From positions 1-15,945 of the forward strand of contig CAMHBE010000011.1 in assembly GCA_946183095.1 (NCBI GenBank): a stretch of DNA of 15,945 nt, given 5' to 3'. Source of the DNA: an uncultured Clostridia bacterium. Its GTDB lineage: Bacteria > Bacillota > Clostridia > Oscillospirales > Ruminococcaceae. Below, one piece after another: positions 2,154 through 15,855 of this stretch. A model generated the notes under the pieces. The model was not told the origin of the DNA. It was given only the letters and a program-made list of their open reading frames with translations, and did no database searches. The position numbers were made by a program, and so were the translations under genes. Position 1 is the first letter of the stretch. Each line of letters starts with the position of its first letter.

Positions 2154-2995
2154 GACTGAGAAAGCTGACGGTCTGCATCATAGCAGCACTTGCCGCCGTT
2201 GTCGCGCTCTGTATCACAGCTTTTGCCGATGATACCGGCCGCATCTGCGAGCTCATAGACGATGCCGACCTGTTCTCCGGATCGGAGACAGAGGACCTCT
2301 GCGGCAGAATGCAGAGCACAGCCGAAAAAACAGGATTAAACATCATAATCATGACGACCGACGACGTTGGTTCGTCAAAGTCCGATGCTGCGGTAGTCGA
2401 TATGTGCGATGTCATGTACGAGGATATATGCGGCATGAACACGGACGGCGTGCTGTTCCTCATTAACCTTGACACACGGTATCATTCCCTTTCGACAAGC
2501 GGTTCCGCGATAAACTATTTCAGCGATTACCGCATAGACAAACTGTACGACTACATCACGAGCGATATGCGTTCGGGCAACTACTACGGGGTCGCAAAAA
2601 CATTTCTCCGCACCACGGAGAGCTATTTTGACAACGGCAAGGTGAATGAGCAGCAGGAGGTACTCGGCTCGGAAGTCGATATGCGTGCATTCCGCAAGGC
2701 TCTGATAAAATATCTGCTTATTACCGGCTTCATCTCCGTCATCGCAGGTTTTATCATATTTGCCGCGATATCATCGAAGATGAAGCTGCAGCGTCCCTCC
2801 GCGCGTCAGTACATCCTGAAAAACTCGCTGAAGTTCAACGTTAAGCAGGATAACTACATCGGGACTTTCACCGAACGGAGATATTCTCCGAGAAGCTCGT
2901 CAAGCGGCAGTTCCTCGCACCGCAGCTCCGGTCACAGCTCTACCCACCACTCCAGCCGCGGCGGTCGTCACGGCGGCGGCGGCAGACATATCTGA
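2150..2995 (+). CDS. Secreted/membrane TPM-domain protein
   Basis: The 281-aa protein begins with a signal peptide (MRLRK, a hydrophobic core to about residue 23, then an AFA-D cleavage-like site near 26). A TPM-like domain follows (about 29-160), with the NIIIMTTDD and GVLFLINLDTRYHSLSTSG strands typical of the family (PF04536-like; plant Psb32/TLP18.3 and bacterial YgcG relatives). One transmembrane helix (about 184-206) follows, and then a basic and Ser/His/Gly-rich tail (about 246-281). Such low-complexity tails are common in bacterial TPM proteins. The membrane topology implies an extracytoplasmic TPM domain and a cytoplasmic tail. It starts within the stop of the upstream zinc-ribbon gene (ATGA), with a GGGGGCGGGAG-type binding site. 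I see no terminator behind it. Roles proposed for the family (phosphatase, assembly factor) cannot be assigned here. Confidence 0.8.
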   Translation: MRLRKLTVCIIAALAAVVALCITAFADDTGRICELIDDADLFSGSETEDLCGRMQSTAEKTGLNIIIMTTDDVGSSKSDAAVVDMCDVMYEDICGMNTDGVLFLINLDTRYHSLSTSGSAINYFSDYRIDKLYDYITSDMRSGNYYGVAKTFLRTTESYFDNGKVNEQQEVLGSEVDMRAFRKALIKYLLITGFISVIAGFIIFAAISSKMKLQRPSARQYILKNSLKFNVKQDNYIGTFTERRYSPRSSSSGSSSHRSSGHSSTHHSSRGGRHGGGGRHI

Positions 2996-3028
2996 CGCTT
3001 TACGACGGAGCGAAAAGGCGCAAAATAC

Positions 3029-3057
3029 TTGACAACTGCGGAAAAATGTGTTATAAT
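3029..3057 (+). promoter_or_regulatory. Strong extended -10 promoter of the polyamine operon
   Basis: A consensus -35 TTGACA (3029-3034), a 17-bp spacer and a consensus -10 TATAAT (3052-3057) with the extended TGT motif just upstream. Initiation is expected at about A3062-G3065, so the first stem of the leader RNA would begin almost at the 5' end of the transcript. A promoter this close to consensus suggests that control is exerted after initiation, in the leader. Confidence 0.92.
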
Positions 3058-3062
3058 GTAAA

Positions 3063-3137
3063 ATGACCAGAATATATGGCCCATACGGACAGGCCGGTCA
3101 GACGCCGAGAGCGGTTTGGTGCCGCATTATTGATTGA
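3063..3137 (+). other. Possible 24-codon leader ORF at the transcript 5' end
   Basis: An ATG at 3063, at or next to the predicted transcription start, opens a 24-codon frame ending at TGA 3135-3137. It contains three arginine codons (3069 AGA, 3108 AGA, 3123 CGC). There is no room for a ribosome binding site, so it would have to be translated as a leaderless message. It overlaps hairpin H1 and the 5' strand of stem P2, so translation would interfere with that fold. It is probably fortuitous, but it is recorded because arginine-dependent leader-peptide attenuation would suit an operon that begins with arginine decarboxylase. Confidence 0.15.
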
Positions 3138-3265
3138 GTTAAAAGCTCAAATTTTATAAGATGATAACTTTATAATCGATCACTTGTGAAACGGTCAATA
3201 AGAAGCGGCATAGTCCGAAAAAACCGAAAGAACGTATGCAACTTTACGGAAAAAGACTATTTTTG

Positions 3266-3292
3266 AGTGATGCGATACCGCGTCACTTTTTT
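3266..3292 (+). terminator. Intrinsic terminator in the leader (attenuator)
   Basis: The arms AGTGATGCG (3266-3274) and CGCGTCACT (3279-3287) pair over 9 bp (one G-U) around the tetraloop ATAC and run straight into a T tract ending at 3292. The speA ribosome binding site TAGGAA begins three bases later. A terminator between a consensus promoter and the first gene of its operon is the hallmark of transcription attenuation. The upstream segment ATCACTT (3179-3185) can pair with GAGTGAT (3265-3271) and would act as antiterminator. Confidence 0.88.
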
Positions 3293-3306
3293 GTTAGGAA
3301 ACTGCT

Positions 3307-4755
3307 ATGGATATTGAAAGACAAAAAAGCGCCCCTGTCTATGAAGCGCTTGAAAGATTCAGAAAACAGCGCGTGGTGCCCTTCGATGTTCCCGGTCACA
3401 AGCGCGGGCGCGGCAACCCCGAACTGGTGAAGCTCCTCGGTGAGCAGTGCGTATCACTCGACGTGAACTCCATGAAGCCCCTCGATAACCTCTGCCACCC
3501 CGTATCGGTGATCTACGAAGCCGAGCAGCTCGCGGCGGACGCTTTCGGCGCGGCTCACGCTTATTTCATGGTGGGCGGCACCACTTCCGCTGTGCAGAGC
3601 ATGATACTGACCGCCTGCAAAGCCGGTGACAAGATAATCCTCCCGCGAAATGTCCACAAGAGCGTGATAAATGCCCTCGTGCTATGCGGAGCCGTCCCCG
3701 TATATGTTAATCCCGACGTTGACAATCACATCGGCATTGCCCTCGGAATGGAGACTTCGCAGGTAGAAAAGGCGCTGAACGACAATCCCGACGCGGTAGC
3801 TGTCTTCGTCAACAACCCCACCTACTACGGTATCTGCTCCGACCTGCGCGCTATCGTGAAGCTCGCGCATGACAGGGGGATGCTGGTGCTCGTCGATGAA
3901 GCGCACGGCACTCATCTCTATTTCCACGAGAAGCTGCCCGTTTCCGCAATGGAAGCAGGTGCGGACATGGCAGCGGTGTCGATGCACAAGTCGGGCGGGA
4001 GCCTTACACAGAGTTCCCTTCTGCTTGCAAACCACACCGTCAACACGCGCTATATCCAGCAGATAATCAATCTCACGCAGACCACCAGCGCGTCGTACCT
4101 GCTGATGTCGAGCCTTGACATTTCCCGCCGCAACCTCGCGCTGCGCGGGCATGACAGTTTCGAGAAAGTCTCGTCTATGGCGGAGTACGCCCGCGAGGAG
4201 ATAAACTCGATAGGCGGATATTACGCATACGGCAAGGATATAGTAAACGGCAGCAGCATCTTCGACTACGATGTCACAAAGCTGTCGGTATATACCCGCG
4301 ACATGGGGCTTACCGGCATCGAAGTCTATGATCTGCTGCGTGACGAATACGACATTCAGATAGAGTTCGGCGATATCGGAAACATCCTCGCGTACATCTC
4401 GATAGGCGACCGCATACAGGATATCGAGCGCCTTGTGGGAGCGCTGGAGGACATAAAGCGCCTGTACTCCCGGACAAGCTCGAAACTGCACAACGCAGAG
4501 TATATCGCGCCGATCGTCGCGGCAACTCCTCAGGAAGCGTTCTACGCGGACAAGGAACTGCTGCCGATACGCGAAACGGCGGGACGGATATGCAGCGAGT
4601 TCGTTATGTGCTACCCGCCGGGAATACCGATACTTGCGCCCGGCGAACAGATAACGGAAGAGATAATCGACTACATCCTTTACGCAAAGGACAAGGGCTG
4701 CTCCATGCAGGGCATGGAAGACCCGGAAATATCGAAACTCAATGTTTTGAAATAA
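3307..4755 (+). CDS. speA: Arginine decarboxylase (Orn/Lys/Arg decarboxylase family, SpeA type)
   Basis: The 482-aa PLP enzyme belongs to the fold-type-I Orn/Lys/Arg decarboxylase family, in the short Bacillus SpeA/YaaO form. Visible landmarks are FDVPGHKRGRG (26-36), the PLP phosphate-binding region GGTTSAVQS (90-98), DEAHGTH (197-203, Asp197 contacting the pyridine nitrogen) and the Schiff-base lysine K228 in SMHKSGGSLTQSS. The C-terminal family domain ends with a PPGIPILAPGE segment. The family also contains lysine and ornithine decarboxylases. Arginine is chosen because aguA and aguB, which convert agmatine to putrescine, lie in the same operon. It therefore probably catalyses arginine -> agmatine + CO2 in the cytoplasm and opens the pathway. 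The ATG at 3307 has TAGGAA at 3295-3300, immediately after the leader terminator. The first gene of the operon is thus the one directly controlled by attenuation. Confidence 0.92.
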   Translation: MDIERQKSAPVYEALERFRKQRVVPFDVPGHKRGRGNPELVKLLGEQCVSLDVNSMKPLDNLCHPVSVIYEAEQLAADAFGAAHAYFMVGGTTSAVQSMILTACKAGDKIILPRNVHKSVINALVLCGAVPVYVNPDVDNHIGIALGMETSQVEKALNDNPDAVAVFVNNPTYYGICSDLRAIVKLAHDRGMLVLVDEAHGTHLYFHEKLPVSAMEAGADMAAVSMHKSGGSLTQSSLLLANHTVNTRYIQQIINLTQTTSASYLLMSSLDISRRNLALRGHDSFEKVSSMAEYAREEINSIGGYYAYGKDIVNGSSIFDYDVTKLSVYTRDMGLTGIEVYDLLRDEYDIQIEFGDIGNILAYISIGDRIQDIERLVGALEDIKRLYSRTSSKLHNAEYIAPIVAATPQEAFYADKELLPIRETAGRICSEFVMCYPPGIPILAPGEQITEEIIDYILYAKDKGCSMQGMEDPEISKLNVLK

Positions 4756-4791: not shown

Positions 4792-5658
4792 ATGGATTTC
4801 TGGTTTTCCGAAATGCACACATCAAATGTGAAAATGTCGATACGCGTTGACAAGCAGCTTTTCAGCAAAGAAAGCGACTTCCAGCGCATAGACGTGTTTG
4901 AGTCGCCGGAGTTCGGCAAGTTCCTGACATCCGACGGCAGCGTGATATTTTCCGAACAGGACGAGTTCACCTACGACGAGATGATCGTACACGTCCCCAT
5001 GGCGGTGCATCCCTGTGTCCGCAAGGTGCTTGTCATCGGCGGCGGCGACGGCGGAGTTGCCCGCGAACTGTCATACTACGACGAGATAGAGCAGATAGAT
5101 GTCGTGGAACCGGACGAGATGTTCGTGAACGTCTGCAAGGAGTTCTTCCCCGACAACGCGAAAGGTCTGGACGACCCGCGCGTAATAGTCACGAACCGTG
5201 ACGGGCTGCGGTTCCTGCGAGGCAAACAGGATGAATACGACCTTATCATAAACGACAGCACCGACCCGTTCGGACATACGGCGGGACTGTTCACGAAGGA
5301 GTTTTACGGGAGCTGCTACAAAGCGCTGCACGACGACGGCATAATGGTCTATCAGCACGGCAGCCCGTTCTTCGACGAGGACGAGGAAGCCTGCCGCGCT
5401 ATGCACCGCAAGGCGTATAAATCGTTCCCCATAAGCCGCGTCTATCAGGCGCACATACCGACCTGCCCGTCCGGGTACTGGCTGTTCGGGTTCGCGTCGA
5501 AGAAATACCACCCGCTAAAGGATCTCGACCCCGAGCGCTGGAACAAACGCGGGCTGAAAACGTGGTATTATTCGACCAATCTTCACGCGGGAGCCTTCAT
5601 GCTCCCGAAATACGTTGAGGACCTGCTCAAAGAAGAGGAAGGAGCGGAAAAGAAATGA
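4792..5658 (+). CDS. speE: Spermidine synthase family aminopropyltransferase
   Basis: The 288-aa protein is colinear with Bacillus SpeE. The N-terminal beta domain has LWF/WFSE-like and FGKFLTSDGSVIFSEQDEFTYDEM segments, and the Rossmann core has the nucleotide-binding GGGDGG (83-88) and acidic E106. The catalytic DSTDP motif is at 155-159, and the GYWLFGFASK strand (228-237) follows. The family transfers the aminopropyl group of decarboxylated S-adenosylmethionine to putrescine (spermidine) or other amines such as agmatine. GGAGG at 4782-4786 lies 5 bp before the ATG. It is the second gene of the operon, 36 bp after speA, and its stop overlaps the next start. No speD is in the window, so the donor must be made from a gene elsewhere, or the enzyme has another role. 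The acceptor cannot be read from the sequence. Confidence 0.9.
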   Translation: MDFWFSEMHTSNVKMSIRVDKQLFSKESDFQRIDVFESPEFGKFLTSDGSVIFSEQDEFTYDEMIVHVPMAVHPCVRKVLVIGGGDGGVARELSYYDEIEQIDVVEPDEMFVNVCKEFFPDNAKGLDDPRVIVTNRDGLRFLRGKQDEYDLIINDSTDPFGHTAGLFTKEFYGSCYKALHDDGIMVYQHGSPFFDEDEEACRAMHRKAYKSFPISRVYQAHIPTCPSGYWLFGFASKKYHPLKDLDPERWNKRGLKTWYYSTNLHAGAFMLPKYVEDLLKEEEGAEKK

Positions 5659-6200
5659 TGACTGTAAAATTTGACCTTATCGACCCGCTTGTTTATCACA
5701 CTCCCGACTATGATGCTGACATACGGCTCGACGCGTTCGGAACGGTCAATGCCGAGCAGAACGGAGTAGGAGTGGAGCGCGCGATAACCGACACGGTGGC
5801 AGCGGCTCTCAGGATAATTTTCGATGAATACAGCAGGACTGTCAGCTACGCGGAACTCCCGTCGCGGCTGCCGGAACTCAGCAAAGCGCTGTCAGACCGT
5901 CTTACCGATATGCTCAACTACCCATGTTCCGCAGAGATCGAGGGAATATTCCCGACCGAGGAATCCAAAACTATCATAAACAGGCTGCAATTCGCGAAGA
6001 TGATGGGCAAGCCCATGCAGGCTCCTGCGCCTGCTGCTGCACCGACACCCGCACCGGCAGAGCCTGCCGCACCCGCGGAGCCTGTGCGTGCATCCGCAAC
6101 CGATGCGCCGGCAGCGTCCCGCCCGAAATTCTGCGGGAACTGCGGAAGCTCGCTTGACGGCGCTGTAAATTTCTGCCCGAACTGCGGCGCAAGAATATAA
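5655..6200 (+). CDS. Uncharacterised protein with Ala/Pro linker and C-terminal zinc ribbon
   Basis: I do not recognise this 181-aa protein. Residues 1-120 form a mixed domain beginning VKFDLIDPLVYHTPDYDADIRLDAFGTV. Its end (PTEESKTIINRLQFAKMMG) is loosely reminiscent of the tail of an SPFH/band-7-like domain. A low-complexity Ala/Pro linker follows (about 122-155). The C-terminus is a compact Cys4 zinc ribbon, CGNCG...FCPNCG (about 159-178), of the kind often annotated as zinc-ribbon or DZR. It has no signal peptide and no clear membrane helix, so it is probably cytoplasmic. Its ATG overlaps the speE stop (ATGA), with AAGGAG upstream near 5638-5643, so it is coupled to speE. The carboxynorspermidine dehydrogenase gene starts 19 bp after its stop. 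Its position inside the pathway hints at a regulatory or scaffolding role, but nothing in the sequence proves it. Confidence 0.75.
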   Translation: MMTVKFDLIDPLVYHTPDYDADIRLDAFGTVNAEQNGVGVERAITDTVAAALRIIFDEYSRTVSYAELPSRLPELSKALSDRLTDMLNYPCSAEIEGIFPTEESKTIINRLQFAKMMGKPMQAPAPAAAPTPAPAEPAAPAEPVRASATDAPAASRPKFCGNCGSSLDGAVNFCPNCGARI

Positions 6201-6219
6201 CATTTCGGAGGTAAAAAGA

Positions 6220-7473
6220 ATGAAACTTATGGTAATAGGCTGCGGCGGCGTTGCGACCGTTGCAATACACAAATGCTGCGAAAACCCGATATTTACGGAG
6301 ATACTGATAGCGAGCCGAACAAAGTCAAAGTGCGACGCACTCGCAGAAAAGCTCGCGCCGAAAACGTCCGCGAAGCTCACCACCGCAACGGTGGATGCTG
6401 ACAGCAAAGAGTCTCTTGTAAAGCTGATGAACGAGTTCAGACCCCATACCGTGCTGAATGTGGCACTGCCGTATCAGGATCTCACTATCATGGACGCTTG
6501 TCTCGAATGCGGCGCGAACTACGTCGATACCGCGAACTACGAAGCGGAGAACACCGATGACCCCGAGTGGCGTGCAGTTTATGAGAAGCGCTGCAAGGAA
6601 AAGGGCTTCACCGCGTATTTTGACTATTCGTGGCAGTGGGCATACAACGACAAGTTCAAGGCTGCGGGACTTACCGCACTTCTCGGCACGGGCTTCGACC
6701 CCGGAGTTACCAGCGTTTACAGCGCTTATGCTCTCAAACATTACTTTGACGAGATACATTATATCGACATTCTCGACTGCAACGGCGGCGACCACGGCTA
6801 TCCGTTCGCAACGAACTTCAACCCGGAAATCAACCTTCGTGAAGTTTCCGCGAACGGCTCCTACTGGGAGGACGGTCACTGGGTCGAGACTAAGCCTATG
6901 GAGATAAAGCGCGAATACAACTTCGACGGTGTGGGCATGAAAGATATGTATTTGCTGCACCACGAGGAGATAGAGTCGCTCGCGAAGAATATCCCGAACG
7001 TAAAGCGCATCAGGTTTTTCATGACCTTCGGGCAGTCCTACCTCACACACATGAACTGCTTACAGAACGTGGGAATGCTCGGCACAACGCCCGTGATGTT
7101 CGAGGGACGCGAGATAGTTCCGATAAAATTCCTGAAAGCACTGCTGCCAGACCCGGCTTCCCTCGGTCCGAGAACCGTCGGCAAGACCAACATAGGCTGC
7201 ATCTTCCGCGGCATAAAGGACGGCAGGGAGCGCAATATCTATATATACAATGTCTGCGATCATCAGGAGTGCTACAAGGAGACAGGCGCACAGGCTGTGT
7301 CCTACACCACAGGCGTTCCCGCAATGATAGGCACGGCTATGGTGGCGGGCGGCACATGGAAGGGCGCGGGAGTGTTCAATGTTGAGGAATTCGACCCCGA
7401 CCCGTATATGGACGCTCTCAACAAGTACGGTCTGCCGTGGCAGGTGGACGAGAATCCCGTACTGGTGGACTGA
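6220..7473 (+). CDS. Carboxynorspermidine/carboxyspermidine dehydrogenase (saccharopine dehydrogenase family)
   Basis: The 417-aa protein belongs to the saccharopine-dehydrogenase-like family. It has an N-terminal Rossmann dinucleotide site, MVIGCGGVA (residues 4-12), then LIASRTKSKCDAL, a GANYVDTANYE loop, and the GFDPGVTSVYSAYALKHYFDEI segment typical of CASDH proteins. The known reaction is reductive condensation of putrescine (or 1,3-diaminopropane) with aspartate beta-semialdehyde, using NADPH, to carboxyspermidine (or carboxynorspermidine). It lies directly before nspC, which encodes the enzyme for the following step; this pairing is the main reason to prefer CASDH over lysine-pathway saccharopine dehydrogenase. 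GGAGGT at 6207-6212 gives a well-spaced start. Its stop is one base before the nspC ATG. An agmatine-using variant (carboxyaminopropylagmatine dehydrogenase) is a possible alternative given SpeA in the operon. Confidence 0.9.
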   Translation: MKLMVIGCGGVATVAIHKCCENPIFTEILIASRTKSKCDALAEKLAPKTSAKLTTATVDADSKESLVKLMNEFRPHTVLNVALPYQDLTIMDACLECGANYVDTANYEAENTDDPEWRAVYEKRCKEKGFTAYFDYSWQWAYNDKFKAAGLTALLGTGFDPGVTSVYSAYALKHYFDEIHYIDILDCNGGDHGYPFATNFNPEINLREVSANGSYWEDGHWVETKPMEIKREYNFDGVGMKDMYLLHHEEIESLAKNIPNVKRIRFFMTFGQSYLTHMNCLQNVGMLGTTPVMFEGREIVPIKFLKALLPDPASLGPRTVGKTNIGCIFRGIKDGRERNIYIYNVCDHQECYKETGAQAVSYTTGVPAMIGTAMVAGGTWKGAGVFNVEEFDPDPYMDALNKYGLPWQVDENPVLVD

Positions 7474-7474
7474 G

Positions 7475-8617
7475 ATGATGAACCAAAGCCTGCTGCCGAG
7501 AACAGAGCTGGGCGAGATGATGACGCCCGCGTATGTGCTCGACGAGAGCGCTCTGCACCGCAATCTGAAGATACTCCTTGATGTTCAGCAGCGCTCCGGC
7601 TGTAAGATACTCCTTGCGCAAAAAGCATTTTCCATGTTTGCAGTGTATCCGATGATCTCGGAATACCTCGCGGGAACCACCGCAAGTGGGCTGTATGAAG
7701 CAAGGCTCGGACATGAAGAGTTCGGCGCAGGGGACGTTCACGTTTTCAGCCCGGCATACAAGGAAAATGAGATATGTGACATAGCGAATTATGCCGACCA
7801 TATCGTGTTCAACTCATTTGCGCAGCTGCGGAAGTTCCGCGGGTACTGCAAAGGCAAAAGTCTCGGCATACGCATAAACCCGGAGTGTTCGACACAGGAT
7901 GAGCCTATATATGACCCCTGCGCAGAGGGCTCACGGCTCGGCGTTACGCTTGCGAACTTCGATGAAGCGGAGTTCGGGGGAGTTGACGGCATACACTTCC
8001 ACACGCTCTGCGAACAGGGCTTTGAGCCGCTTGCAAAAACCGTGGAAGTTGTGGAGCAGAAGTTCGGCAAGTATCTGCGCAAATGCAAATGGGTGAACTT
8101 CGGCGGCGGGCATCATATCACGAAGCCCGGTTACGACATCGAGGGGCTTGTATCGCTGATAAAGCGGTTTTCCGAAAAGTACGGGGTACAGGTCTATCTT
8201 GAACCCGGAGAAGCCGTGGTGCTGAATGCCGGGTGGCTCGTTTCCGAAGTCATGGAGATCGTGCATAACGGCACGGATATCGCGATACTCGACACATCCG
8301 CCGCCTGCCATATGCCGGACGTGCTGGAAATGCCGTACCGCCCGCCGCTTTTTAACAGCGGACAGCCCGGTGAAAAAAAATACACATACCGCCTGTCGTC
8401 ACGCACCTGCCTTTCCGGCGACATCATCGGCGACTACAGTTTCGATGTGCCTCTCCGCGAGGGTGACAGGCTGTGCTTCGAGGACATGGCGCTTTATACA
8501 ATGGTCAAGAACAACACATTCAACGGTATGCCTCTGCCCGACATCGGGATACTCCGCAGCTCTTATGAGCTTGTGAAGCGTTTCGGGTATGAGGATTTCA
8601 AGGGGAGACTGTCATGA
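7475..8617 (+). CDS. nspC: Carboxynorspermidine/carboxyspermidine decarboxylase
   Basis: The 380-aa fold-type-III (alanine-racemase-like) PLP decarboxylase is of the NspC type. Features are TPAYVLDESALHRN (17-30), the PLP lysine K50 in LLAQKAFS, HFHTLCE (174-180), the glycine-rich phosphate loop FGGGHHITKPG (209-219), EPGEAV (243-248) and the second-subunit cysteine C312 in TCLSGD. It removes CO2 from carboxyspermidine to give spermidine (or from carboxynorspermidine to give norspermidine) in the cytoplasm, the last step of the aspartate-semialdehyde route. The start is the first of two adjacent ATGs (7475, 7478), one base after the dehydrogenase stop, with only a weak GGTGG-like binding site. 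Expression probably relies on translational coupling. Its stop overlaps the aguA ATG (ATGA at 8614). Confidence 0.93.
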   Translation: MMNQSLLPRTELGEMMTPAYVLDESALHRNLKILLDVQQRSGCKILLAQKAFSMFAVYPMISEYLAGTTASGLYEARLGHEEFGAGDVHVFSPAYKENEICDIANYADHIVFNSFAQLRKFRGYCKGKSLGIRINPECSTQDEPIYDPCAEGSRLGVTLANFDEAEFGGVDGIHFHTLCEQGFEPLAKTVEVVEQKFGKYLRKCKWVNFGGGHHITKPGYDIEGLVSLIKRFSEKYGVQVYLEPGEAVVLNAGWLVSEVMEIVHNGTDIAILDTSAACHMPDVLEMPYRPPLFNSGQPGEKKYTYRLSSRTCLSGDIIGDYSFDVPLREGDRLCFEDMALYTMVKNNTFNGMPLPDIGILRSSYELVKRFGYEDFKGRLS

Positions 8618-9690
8618 GTTTTTATATGCCTGCGGAATTTTCTCCGCACCGCGCAACCGTCATAGTTTTCCCCGAACGTCCCGGTTCATGGGGTACCGAC
8701 CCCGTACCCGCGCAGAGAGCGTTTGCCCGTATCATCGACACGATAGCGCTCCACGAGGACGTTTACGTCATAGTTTCCCCCACAAATGCCGGGAACGCCC
8801 GTTCTTTTATTGCACCCTCTACCCGCGTGCGTTTTCTCGGCATACCAACAAACGACGCATGGGCGCGGGATATTGCCCCGACATTCGTTACCGACGGCAC
8901 GGATATCCGCGGTATCTCGTGGAAGTTCAACGCATGGGGCGGTACATTCGACGGTCTGTATGCCGACTGGACGCTTGACGACGCATTTGCCGGACGTTTC
9001 TGCGCCGCTGCGGGCTTTTCCTGCACCGACGCAAGCCCGTTCGTACTCGAAGGCGGCTCGATACACACCGACGGCGAGGGGACGCTCCTTGTGACGGAGA
9101 GCTGTCTGCTCAGCGGCGGGCGCAATCCGCAGATGTCGCGTTCCGAGATCGAACGCACGCTATGCTCATATCTCGGCTGCACGAAAGTTCTCTGGCTGCC
9201 GCGCGGCATTTACAACGATGAAACCAACGAGCACGTTGACAATGTGTGCTGCTTCATCAGACCCGCCGAGGTGGTGCTTGCATGGACGGACGACACGAAC
9301 GACCCGCAGTACGAGCTTTCCCGCGCGGATCTCGAATATCTTGAAAGCGTAACCGACGCAAAAGACCGTCATATCACCGTCCATAAGCTGCCAATTCCCG
9401 ACGTACCCGTGTGCATCACCGAGAGCGACCTCTCGCATTACGTCTTCGAGGACGGAGAGGACACCCGCGAGGTGGGCGAACGGCTTGCCGCTTCCTATGT
9501 CAACTTCTACTTTGCAAACGATATAGTGCTCCTCCCGCAGTTCGGCGGCGAAAACGCAGAGAGCGACTCCCGCGCACTATCCATAATGCGCGGACTTCTT
9601 CCGGAGCGGGAGATCATCCCAATTCCCGCCATGGAAATAATCAAGGGCGGCGGGAATATCCACTGCATCACGCAGCAGATACCTCAGTGA
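8614..9690 (+). CDS. aguA: Agmatine deiminase
   Basis: The 358-aa protein has the usual length and motifs of the guanidine-modifying agmatine deiminases: PTNDAWARDIAPTFV (78-92), VLEGGSIHTDGEGTLL (144-159), NEHVDNVCCFIRP (205-217, with catalytic His207 and Asp209) and the C-terminal GGGNIHCIT carrying the nucleophile Cys351. It converts agmatine to N-carbamoylputrescine and ammonia. The start overlaps the nspC stop by four bases, with AGGGGAG at 8601-8607 at good spacing. It takes the product of SpeA and hands its product to AguB, encoded 28 bp downstream. All catalytic residues seem present, and nothing suggests decay. Confidence 0.95.
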   Translation: MSFYMPAEFSPHRATVIVFPERPGSWGTDPVPAQRAFARIIDTIALHEDVYVIVSPTNAGNARSFIAPSTRVRFLGIPTNDAWARDIAPTFVTDGTDIRGISWKFNAWGGTFDGLYADWTLDDAFAGRFCAAAGFSCTDASPFVLEGGSIHTDGEGTLLVTESCLLSGGRNPQMSRSEIERTLCSYLGCTKVLWLPRGIYNDETNEHVDNVCCFIRPAEVVLAWTDDTNDPQYELSRADLEYLESVTDAKDRHITVHKLPIPDVPVCITESDLSHYVFEDGEDTREVGERLAASYVNFYFANDIVLLPQFGGENAESDSRALSIMRGLLPEREIIPIPAMEIIKGGGNIHCITQQIPQ

Positions 9691-9718
9691 ATGGTCATAC
9701 ACACAAAGGTGGTTTTCC

Positions 9719-10597
9719 ATGAAAAACGTAACAGTTTCTGCAGTGCAGATGCACTGCACACCCGATATAAACGAAAACATATCCCTTGCGGATAAACTCG
9801 TCCGTGAGGCTGCATCATCCGGCGCACAGGTGATACTTCTCCCGGAACTCTTCGAGCGCCCGTACTTTTGTCAGGAGCGCCGTTACGAATACTACGCCTA
9901 TGCGCAGGCGGTATCTCAAAACACTGCCGTTCTGCACTTCTCCGCTCTTGCAAAAGAACTCGGCGCTGTGCTGCCGATCAGCTTTTACGAGCGTGACGGG
10001 AACCGCCTGTTCAACTCCTGCGCGGTTATCGACGCGGACGGCACGGTGCTCGGAGTTTACCGCAAGACGCACATCCCCGACGATCATTATTATCAGGAAA
10101 AATTCTACTTCACACCCGGAGACACCGGCTTCACTGTATTCCACACACGTTTTGCGGATATCGGTGTTGGAATCTGCTGGGATCAGTGGTTCCCGGAAAC
10201 CGCACGCTGCCTGACGCTGGGCGGCGCGGAACTGCTGTTTTTCCCGACGGCTATCGGCTCCGAGCCTATCATAGAATGTGACAGTATGCCGCACTGGCGG
10301 CGTGCGATGCAGGGTCATTCAGCCGCAAACGTTATCCCGGTGATCGCGGCGAACCGCTTCGGAACCGAAAAAGTGGAGCCCTGCCCCGAGAACGGCGGTC
10401 AGAGTTCAGCCCTGACATTCTACGGTTCATCGTTCATCACCGACGAGACGGGCGGTATCATCGAGGATGCTCCACGCTCCGGTGACTGCGTACTGACCCA
10501 CACCTTCGATCTTGACGCTGTTTATGAGATGCGCCTTAGCTGGGGTATTTTCCGTGACAGGCGACCCGACAGATACGGTATCATAACACAAAAATAG
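9719..10597 (+). CDS. aguB: N-carbamoylputrescine amidohydrolase (nitrilase superfamily)
   Basis: The 292-aa member of the nitrilase superfamily carries the full Glu-Lys-Cys triad: E43 in LLPELFERPYFCQ, K116 in YRKTHIPD and C153 in VGICWDQWFPE. The stretches PELFERPYFCQ and IPDDHYYQEKFYFTPGD match plant and bacterial N-carbamoylputrescine amidases. It hydrolyses N-carbamoylputrescine to putrescine, CO2 and ammonia. AAAGGTGG (about 9706-9713) precedes the ATG. It completes the arginine-to-putrescine branch of the operon and supplies putrescine to the carboxyspermidine dehydrogenase and/or SpeE. Confidence 0.95.
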   Translation: MKNVTVSAVQMHCTPDINENISLADKLVREAASSGAQVILLPELFERPYFCQERRYEYYAYAQAVSQNTAVLHFSALAKELGAVLPISFYERDGNRLFNSCAVIDADGTVLGVYRKTHIPDDHYYQEKFYFTPGDTGFTVFHTRFADIGVGICWDQWFPETARCLTLGGAELLFFPTAIGSEPIIECDSMPHWRRAMQGHSAANVIPVIAANRFGTEKVEPCPENGGQSSALTFYGSSFITDETGGIIEDAPRSGDCVLTHTFDLDAVYEMRLSWGIFRDRRPDRYGIITQK

Positions 10598-14154: not shown

Positions 14155-15855
14155 TCAGACATATTTGGGTGTTGTGCAGTTGCACGAGAAAGTGACTATC
14201 TTGTTCACCTTGCTTATTATGAGCTGACCTATGGGGTTGTCGTTGCAGCTGAGGTCGGTAAGTTCACCGTTTTTCGTAAGGTCGAGGATCCCTATCTTGT
14301 TGTTGTCACAGTGAAGCATCTGCAAATAAGGATTGCCTGTAAGGTCGATAACGGCTATCTCATTGTTGCTGCATAAAAGCTGCTTCATTTTGGGGTTTCT
14401 GAACAGGTCGAGCTTCTGCATATCGTTATCGGTGCAGTCGAGAACTTCAAGGCGGGAGTTCTTTTTGAGGTCAATGGAGCGTATCTGGTTGCCGCTGCAA
14501 TATAACGAAACGAGTGCGGTGTTTTTTGTGATGCTGAGGGAACCCATAGCGTTATTGCTGCAATCTATCGTCTTCAGCTTTGTGTTCACGGAAGTATCTA
14601 TTTTCAGTATCTTGTTGTCAGAGCAGTTGAACACGAGGAGTTTCGGGCACTTGCTTATATCTATCTTTGTAAGCAGGTTCTTGCTGCAATTGAGTGATGT
14701 GAGCGCCTTATTGGTGCTGATATCGAGTTCCGATAATGAATTGATGCTGCAATCGAGCTCTTTCAGGTATATGTTATCTTCGAGGTCGAGGTCGGTGAGC
14801 TTGTTGCCGCTGCAATAGAGTTTCTCCAGATTGAGGTTCCCGCTCACGTCTATCTTTTTGAGCCCGCAGCCGTTGCAGCTGAACGATCTGAGTATGATAT
14901 TCTTGCTGAGGTCGTATTCCTGGATGGAGAGGCTGTTTGCAGTAAGGTCTTTCAGTCTCTCATTCTTCGACAGATCGAGCTTCTTGAACGGGTTATCGGA
15001 GCAGTCCAGCTTTTCAAGCTTCTTCATTCTTACCAGCGAGATAGTTTTAAGATCGTTCTTGGCACAGTTCAGGTATGTTATCTCCTTATTGGCGCTGAGA
15101 TCTACCGCCGTAAGCGCATTGTACGAGATGTCGAGATGCGTGAGCTTTGTGCAGTGTCCGAGTGTCAGCTTATTGATATCGTTGTACGCACAGTTGAGGT
15201 GAGTCACTGAAGCGTTGTTCGACAGGTCTAAATACGTCAGCTTATTGTCGGAGCAGTCTATCGTCGTGAGCTTTGTATTCTTGCTGAGATCGAGGGAGAG
15301 GATGTTGTTCAGTTTGCAGTTGAGTTCCGTAAGTTTCGCATTAGCCTCGGTGTTGAGATGCGAGAGAGCATTGTCGGAACAGTCCAGCTTAACGAGCTTC
15401 GGGCTTTTTTTGATGCTGAGCGTCTTCATGTTGTTCCCGGCGCAGTACACCTCGGTAATCTCGGGATTTCCGTTGAGGTTGAGGGAAACTATCTCGTTGT
15501 CGGAGCAGTCTATGTATTTGAGCTTCGCGTTTTTGGTGAGGTCGATCTCATAGATGTCGTTGCCGGCGCATCTGAGGTATTCCAGAGCCGTGAGGCGCTC
15601 TATGCCCTTCATCTCGAAAACTCCGCTGCTGCCTATATCTATCCTGCTGCACTCCGCTATCTCCGCGTCCGTGAGTATGCCGTCCTTGTTGGTGTCAACA
15701 TTTTCCGAAACGTAGTTGAAAAACACCTCATCGGGGAAATTGTCGCGGTTGAGCTTTACGCCCTTCACCTTTGCCGCGGATGCCCCCGCAGCGAGACATA
15801 CGGCAGCGGCTGCCGAGATGCACGAAACGAACAGTATCTTGGTTGACTTCTTCAT
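14155..15855 (-). CDS. Secreted leucine-rich repeat protein with EF-hand-like loop
   Basis: The 566-aa protein starts with a signal peptide (MKKSTK, a hydrophobic core, and an ASA-A cleavage site near residue 27). The head (35-70) is FPDEVFFNYVSENVDTNKDGILTDAEI. Its DTNKDGILTDAE is a canonical EF-hand/dockerin-like calcium loop (D54, N56, D58, I60, E65). Twenty-two leucine-rich repeats of exactly 21 residues follow (91-552), with the consensus LxxLDCSDNxLxxLDLSxNxx, then a 14-residue end. I see no LPXTG, SLH or other wall anchor and no lipobox, so it is probably released or held non-covalently at the surface. Proteins with this head and repeat type are frequent in Ruminococcaceae and are thought to bind other proteins or glycans; no ligand can be assigned. 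AAGGAG precedes the ATG, and trkH ends 18 bp upstream. Confidence 0.9.
   Translation of the reverse strand: MKKSTKILFVSCISAAAAVCLAAGASAAKVKGVKLNRDNFPDEVFFNYVSENVDTNKDGILTDAEIAECSRIDIGSSGVFEMKGIERLTALEYLRCAGNDIYEIDLTKNAKLKYIDCSDNEIVSLNLNGNPEITEVYCAGNNMKTLSIKKSPKLVKLDCSDNALSHLNTEANAKLTELNCKLNNILSLDLSKNTKLTTIDCSDNKLTYLDLSNNASVTHLNCAYNDINKLTLGHCTKLTHLDISYNALTAVDLSANKEITYLNCAKNDLKTISLVRMKKLEKLDCSDNPFKKLDLSKNERLKDLTANSLSIQEYDLSKNIILRSFSCNGCGLKKIDVSGNLNLEKLYCSGNKLTDLDLEDNIYLKELDCSINSLSELDISTNKALTSLNCSKNLLTKIDISKCPKLLVFNCSDNKILKIDTSVNTKLKTIDCSNNAMGSLSITKNTALVSLYCSGNQIRSIDLKKNSRLEVLDCTDNDMQKLDLFRNPKMKQLLCSNNEIAVIDLTGNPYLQMLHCDNNKIGILDLTKNGELTDLSCNDNPIGQLIISKVNKIVTFSCNCTTPKYV
14200..15585 (-). repeat. 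22 tandem 63-bp units encoding the leucine-rich repeats
   Basis: The frame encodes 22 consecutive units of exactly 21 codons (residues 91-552) with no insertion or deletion. Conserved positions are L1, L4, C6, N9, L12, L15/D16, L17 and N19. The units differ in DNA sequence, so the array is old or under selection at protein level rather than recently amplified. Unit 11 is the most aberrant: TANSLS stands where the Cys/Asn core should be. Confidence 0.9.

Follow-up and report, generated by a model that had tools for sequence, protein, structure and literature searches.

Rfam family RF02440 as the 5' part of a candidate polyamine-responsive attenuator in Bacillota

Riboswitches sensing polyamines have long been sought, and leader control of polyamine genes is known from the SpeFL leader peptide. 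The one validated spermidine riboswitch class found in print derives from SAM-I (Salvail et al. 2023, PMC10853860), and its alignment, in the accessible part of that report, counts 13 representatives. In pneumococcus, the RNA F59 was described as an 82-nt species located between SP0915 and SP0916 (PMC3395615), and the same RNA is listed as srn235/F59/Spd_sr49, with a length of 327 nt, in PMC12323649, as far as the available portions of both sources go. The corresponding Rfam family, RF02440, is named SpF59 sRNA (ldcC RNA), an alias which suggests that the gene link had already been noticed. RF02440 is nowhere described as a cis-regulator or as a polyamine regulator in the literature searched, and term searches of the accessible text of Stav 2019, Brewer 2021, Narunsky 2024, a 2022 riboswitch review and a review of C. 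difficile riboswitches retrieved no description of the RNA. What is on record is one small piece, as an sRNA of unknown function.

The locus described here lies in a window of 15,945 nt, the whole stretch of DNA analysed, from an uncultured Clostridia bacterium of the Ruminococcaceae. A sequence-only reading had singled out a leader of about 240 nt (3058-3306, plus strand) as a candidate attenuator of a polyamine operon. The consensus promoter it had noticed was confirmed as an extended -10 promoter (3029-3057), in which TTGACA (3029-3034) and TATAAT (3052-3057), separated by a 17-nt spacer, match the consensus at 12/12 letters, and TG precedes the -10 box. The leader RNA starts at about 3063, and an intrinsic terminator (3265-3292) ends directly ahead of the Shine-Dalgarno sequence and ATG of speA. 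The terminator consists of the hairpin GAGTGATGCG-ATAC-CGCGTCACTT (3265-3288) and a T-tract (3287-3292), as had been claimed, except that the stem has 10 pairs rather than 9. The Shine-Dalgarno AGGA (3296-3299) does begin three bases past the T-tract, and the speA start codon is at 3307. When the leader (3064-3296) was folded against 200 shuffled sequences, none was as good (z -3.35). At 3327-3351, inside the start of speA, the minus strand has a terminator-like hairpin that carries a T-run.

The operon opens with a SpeA-type Orn/Lys/Arg decarboxylase gene (3307-4755, plus strand), all NCBIfam matches of which are below cut-off, and continues on the same strand (4792-10597) with speE, a zinc-ribbon protein gene, a dehydrogenase gene, nspC, aguA and aguB. 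The dehydrogenase is carboxynorspermidine synthase-like, with a score below its NCBIfam cut-off. The gene at 5655-6200 encodes a 181-aa protein whose only Pfam match is a zinc ribbon at its C-terminus. speE (4792-5658) resides beside a carboxy(nor)spermidine route (6220-8617), yet a SpeD search of the draft genome, which is 72% complete, gave no match. Farther away, the minus strand (14155-15855) encodes a 566-aa leucine-rich-repeat protein with many similar repeats.

The leader contains no credible gene, in line with the sequence-only reading; its sole short frame (ATG 3063-3137) is not conserved in relatives. Were this frame translated, ribosome stalling could control the terminator in a SpeFL-like manner; the window keeps this frame open, and a possible translation of the Rfam consensus is ..PYGQPGQ... 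Such attenuation is nonetheless hardly credible, given that the ATG is found in 5/175 relatives, a stop occurs within 20 codons in 56/175, and the lengths of neighbouring inserts are evenly spread over the three frames (64/59/52). With ATGs missing and inserts out of triplet register, no uORF is conserved, and the leader peptide was rejected.

RF02440 is the sole Rfam match in the window (3064-3108), and its score of 38.0 bits is narrowly above the gathering cut-off of 37.2. In a search of positions 2990-3330 extended up to E 10, 7 matches were obtained, and no SAM family, T-box, speF motif or other riboswitch was among them, which agrees with the earlier failure to recognise a familiar riboswitch core. 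A SAM-I-type spermidine riboswitch, a T-box and the speF motif were rejected as candidates, none having a covariance-model match in the window. A match to a known Rfam family had been anticipated as evidence against a new RNA; a family is indeed matched, yet it is an sRNA model with no known ligand or mechanism. In 23 relatives scanned with Rfam, only RF02440 and one tRNA scored above cut-off. A second model, R1, was derived from the P4 domain, a region outside the Rfam model, of 63 other loci, the window being excluded. At 3126-3201 of the window R1 scores 78.1 bits (E 8e-15), and its next match has 18.1 bits. The core is hence detected by two independent models, and the adjacent R1 match backs the assignment to RF02440. 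The 54-nt RF02440 model covers just the 5' portion of a conserved RNA that is much larger.

The element is conserved across Bacillota. RF02440 is present in 49/197 genomes of the window's family and in 18/398 genomes spread over the phylum, and the RNA in 22/79 genomes of Streptococcaceae (25 loci); the element is commoner than the validated spermidine riboswitch class. The R1 domain is found in 19 of the same 398 genomes, two of which (G466 and G219) have no RF02440 match; G562, in turn, has RF02440 only, and the P4 interior is lost. Three loci (L063, L159 and L166) have lost or replaced most of the P4 interior, with both the 5' core and the 3' tail retained. A degenerate DNA pattern retrieved at least 118 stretches from genomes of named species. 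Among the matches listed are Paenibacillus, Bacillus, Neobacillus, Kurthia, Acidaminococcus, Phascolarctobacterium, Blautia, Faecalibacterium, Gemmiger and Lactococcus, as well as single MAGs labelled Spirochaetes and Synergistaceae. A phage search with the leader of a relative gave no match. In the window's genus 9/40 genomes have the RNA, and these are precisely the nine with a best SpeA sharing at least 74% identity with that of the window. No leader match was obtained by scanning 13 RNA-negative speA loci with Rfam, and no core was seen in six upstream stretches of RNA-negative speA loci of the genus, where several speA genes lie behind another gene. Two loci of the same genus (L187 and L188) have the P4 domain and a score below the Rfam cut-off; L052 and L066, which were not located by the motif search, were left out of all counts.

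In the alignment of relatives, the 5' part includes an outer helix P1, P2 with P2a, the CAUACGGACA loop, UGCCGA and P3, and the 3' part the P4 domain, with UUUUAUAAG and ACUUGURAAACGGUCAAUAA, followed by a 3' tail. In the window, P2 pairs UGACC (3064-3068) with GGUCA (3096-3100) and covaries in relatives; a hairpin (GGCC 3078-3081 / GGCC 3092-3095) exposes the conserved loop CAUACGGACA (3082-3091), and GCCGA (3104-3108) is the 3' end of the RF02440 match. The P3 hairpin (3111-3125; GCGG 3111-3114 / CCGC 3122-3125) follows, and then the P4 domain (3126-3201). The latter is made of P4 (UUAUUGAU 3127-3134 / GUCAAUAA 3194-3201), P5 (UGAG 3135-3138 / CUCA 3146-3149) and P6 (UUUUAUAAG-A-UGA 3152-3164 / UCACUUGUGAAA 3180-3191), all backed by pair counts, as is P6a (GAU 3163-3165 / AUC 3175-3177), whose GAU overlaps P6. 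The seven leaders of the genus, window included, are a short form, in which P2 comes straight after the promoter and P1 is missing. CGGC (3206-3209) and GUCCG (3213-3217) are present in 7/7 of them. CGGC may pair with GCCG (3104-3107), though the energy model prefers another partner, and GUCCG might form a pseudoknot with the loop CGGAC (3086-3090); neither pairing covaries. That the layout is more than chance is borne out by promoter, core and terminator being kept in the six other leaders of the genus.

Covariation was ranked for 99 sequences of the long form, an effective number of 63. Among canonical pairs the strongest covariation lies in P3, the top helix, P2, P2a, P5 and P6a, in a ranking where many clade-driven, non-pairing column pairs also stand high (ranks 3, 8-11, 15, 17 and others). 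The strands of P1 in long forms fit each other better than permuted strands (-8.79 vs -6.75, the best among 2000 permutations reaching -7.40). For the P4 domain, where this count took P6 as UUUUAUAAGUU/AACUUGURAAA, 96.1% of the cells are paired and 5 pairs changed on both sides, which was equalled by 0/500 shuffles. P4 and P6 themselves hardly vary: no pair of P4 changes on both sides, P6 has one such pair in one sequence, and, in the shorter drawing of P6, swapped strands fit as well as own strands (-6.19 vs -6.24). RNAalifold returned P4, P5 and P6a from the domain, and not P6. Conservation is the main support for P4 and P6. Overall, the stems are conserved in orthologous leaders and several covary, as the sequence-only reading needed to hold. 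A conserved structured domain located in the leader of functionally linked genes is what is generally expected of riboswitches.

The functional link is tight. Loci were gathered by the RNA alone, and five proteins, with families named by Pfam, were then sought downstream; the 182 located loci reduce to 176 unique ones. A polyamine-acquisition gene lies within 650 nt in 145/145 unique loci having more than 700 nt downstream. The next gene at these loci encodes SpeD (53), a decarboxylase (41), PotA (29), or a carboxy(nor)spermidine dehydrogenase (21), and at one locus PII and then PotA. The latter, L138, from an Oscillospiraceae MAG, is the only case in 176 unique loci of a PII gene sitting between the RNA and potA, and a link to nitrogen is possible. 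In the 31 unique loci with a shorter downstream region, such a gene was found in 20, and none in 11. PotA or decarboxylase genes are downstream of the RNA in 23/25 loci of Streptococcaceae, at distances of up to 1.05 kb, at which an intervening gene is possible at some loci. Three Streptococcaceae genomes carry two copies, one before potA and one before the decarboxylase gene.

The segment AUCACUU (3179-3185, plus strand) may work as a switch strand, being able to pair either in P6 or with GAGUGAU (3265-3271, plus strand) in the 5' arm of the terminator. Both AUCACUU and a complementary arm are kept in 7/7 leaders of the genus. The pairing of arm and core was assessed starting from 175 unique rows, 144 of which were tested, rows being left out if their core strand had diverged or the sequence downstream was too short. 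An energy-based scan found terminators in 128/144; the 16 without one are mostly explained by gene-start calls leaving 85 nt or less. When the arm was matched with the whole core, its best duplex included the conserved ACUUGU in 99/128 leaders, where shuffled arms predict 8.7; scoring by contiguous runs gave a weaker signal than duplex energies (58/128 vs 9/128 shuffled). Arms fit their own targets better (-13.60) than swapped ones (-11.52, sd 0.20; best of 5000 swaps -12.49). The advantage of own pairs holds within leaders of SpeD and of decarboxylase genes (0/5000 each) and of PotA genes (8/5000), and is not seen within leaders of carboxy(nor)spermidine dehydrogenase (CASDH) genes (1981/5000). 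Streptococcaceae mostly have a different P4 interior, and their switch zone reads ACGCUUG. Their 25 loci include 23 unique ones, of which one has no terminator; terminator arms pair with the ACGCUUG zone in 18/22 tested (3.5 expected), the switch logic being preserved there in a recoded form. The other loci with a diverged core number 27: 6 are too short, 7 have no terminator found, and arm pairing occurs in 8 of the 14 tested (3.1 expected). At the sequence level, the expression platform is therefore one which excludes the core fold, as riboswitches generally have. In the window, the segment at about 3122-3134 is a slightly better partner for the arm than 3179-3185, and is perhaps a second antiterminator.

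Gene context and antiterminator pairing bear out the proposal that the attenuator layout is tied to the polyamine pathway, and the early interpretation as a whole is partly supported. They also bear on the idea that the RNA is a trans-acting sRNA, endowed with its own promoter and terminator and lying before polyamine genes by chance. The idea draws on the listing of the RNA among S. pneumoniae sRNAs (PMC3395615, PMC12323649) and on a 'Lung' entry in a virulence table (PMC4387999), all from sources available in part. It is very improbable, as a polyamine-acquisition gene adjoins every assessable locus and the terminator arm co-varies with a strand of the core; moreover, a terminated leader would itself appear as an sRNA, and disrupting it would have polar effects on the operon.

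We favour, with a probability of about 0.6, the reading that the leader is a cis-acting attenuator which decides on the entry of RNA polymerase into the polyamine operon, and is an OFF switch for polyamines, spermidine being the first candidate. Transcription attenuation is well supported by comparative analysis; binding of a ligand, its identity as spermidine and the OFF sign are inferred. According to this model, the leader would fold into a conserved core (P2, P3 and the P4 domain). In the stop state P6 would hold AUCACUU in the core, the terminator (3265-3292) would form and transcription would end; in the read state AUCACUU would pair with GAGUGAU of the terminator arm, no terminator would form and speA would be transcribed. 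A polyamine, spermidine first, would bind the core and stabilise the stop state, thus providing feedback. Since the terminator arm pairs with the strand that forms the 3' side of P6, stabilisation of the core should favour termination, and the leader is probably built to stop transcription when polyamines are plentiful. The energies computed for the window with no ligand are -66.8 kcal/mol for the stop state and -55.2 kcal/mol for the antiterminator state; the former being lower, readthrough would require that co-transcriptional folding decides the outcome. These energies weigh against the favoured reading, as do the near invariance of P4 and P6, the better partner of the arm in the window and the missing own-pair advantage in CASDH leaders. 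In S. agalactiae, potA, which is co-transcribed with murB, is up about threefold with spermidine, according to the available part of PMC8744998; this would count against the OFF sign if that locus carries the RNA.

The same anatomy could convey a signal through an RNA-binding protein, or through general effects of polyamines on RNA folding or elongation, with no dedicated pocket. All results on anatomy and gene linkage fit this as well, and polyamines are reported to bind RNA broadly (PMC10853860, accessible part). Yet long unpaired stretches are near letter-for-letter identical in most relatives, as expected of a pocket, and we regard this explanation as unlikely, if the most serious of the alternatives. 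Alternatively, a riboswitch may sense putrescine, agmatine, cadaverine, arginine, lysine, SAM or decarboxylated SAM. Decarboxylase-first operons are common (47/176 unique loci), but one core stands ahead of speD, potA and carboxy(nor)spermidine dehydrogenase genes alike, and signals derived from SAM poorly fit a host with no SpeD detected in its incomplete genome; a different ligand is thus doubtful. With the RNA placed ahead of both routes to spermidine as well as of Pot uptake, and no match to SpeD, spermidine would be the simplest shared signal for the OFF switch we favour.

Taken more broadly, the balance tilts slightly towards a riboswitch class that spans Bacillota and is unrelated to SAM-I, with a core of about 140-230 nt that would bind spermidine or a close polyamine and shut off both routes of synthesis and Pot uptake. 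On this reading, the pneumococcal 'SpF59 sRNA' would be a terminated leader, and Streptococcaceae would have rewritten the P4 interior and the antiterminator, the logic being kept. If this is true, a listed sRNA of unknown function in pneumococcus could plausibly be understood as a feedback leader. The RNA precedes operons for synthesis and uptake alike and, now that its limits and switch strand are defined, lends itself to assays of direct binding.

Of the closest known systems, RF02440/F59 also lies ahead of a decarboxylase gene in S. pneumoniae (PMC3395615, available part). It differs in being a short sRNA model with no function attached, whereas the conserved RNA continues through P3 and P4, and long forms add P1 and the 3' tail. 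SpeFL differs from window-type leaders, which have no conserved uORF. The speF motif (PMC11477304, part available) likewise provides leader control of polyamine genes, and has no match here. The odc1 uORF and potE motifs (Brewer et al. 2021, PMC8632094) are also candidate leader RNAs of polyamine genes; going by the accessible descriptions, they are set apart by the other genes they precede, odc1 being a small uORF-type element with a pseudoknot, and potE having no clear expression platform. The SAM-I-variant spermidine riboswitch has a SAM-I fold, whereas the window has no SAM-family match up to E 10; yet, as described in the available part of PMC10853860, it is a transcription OFF switch which works through a terminator and an antiterminator before polyamine genes, ldcC included, much as is proposed for the leader described here.
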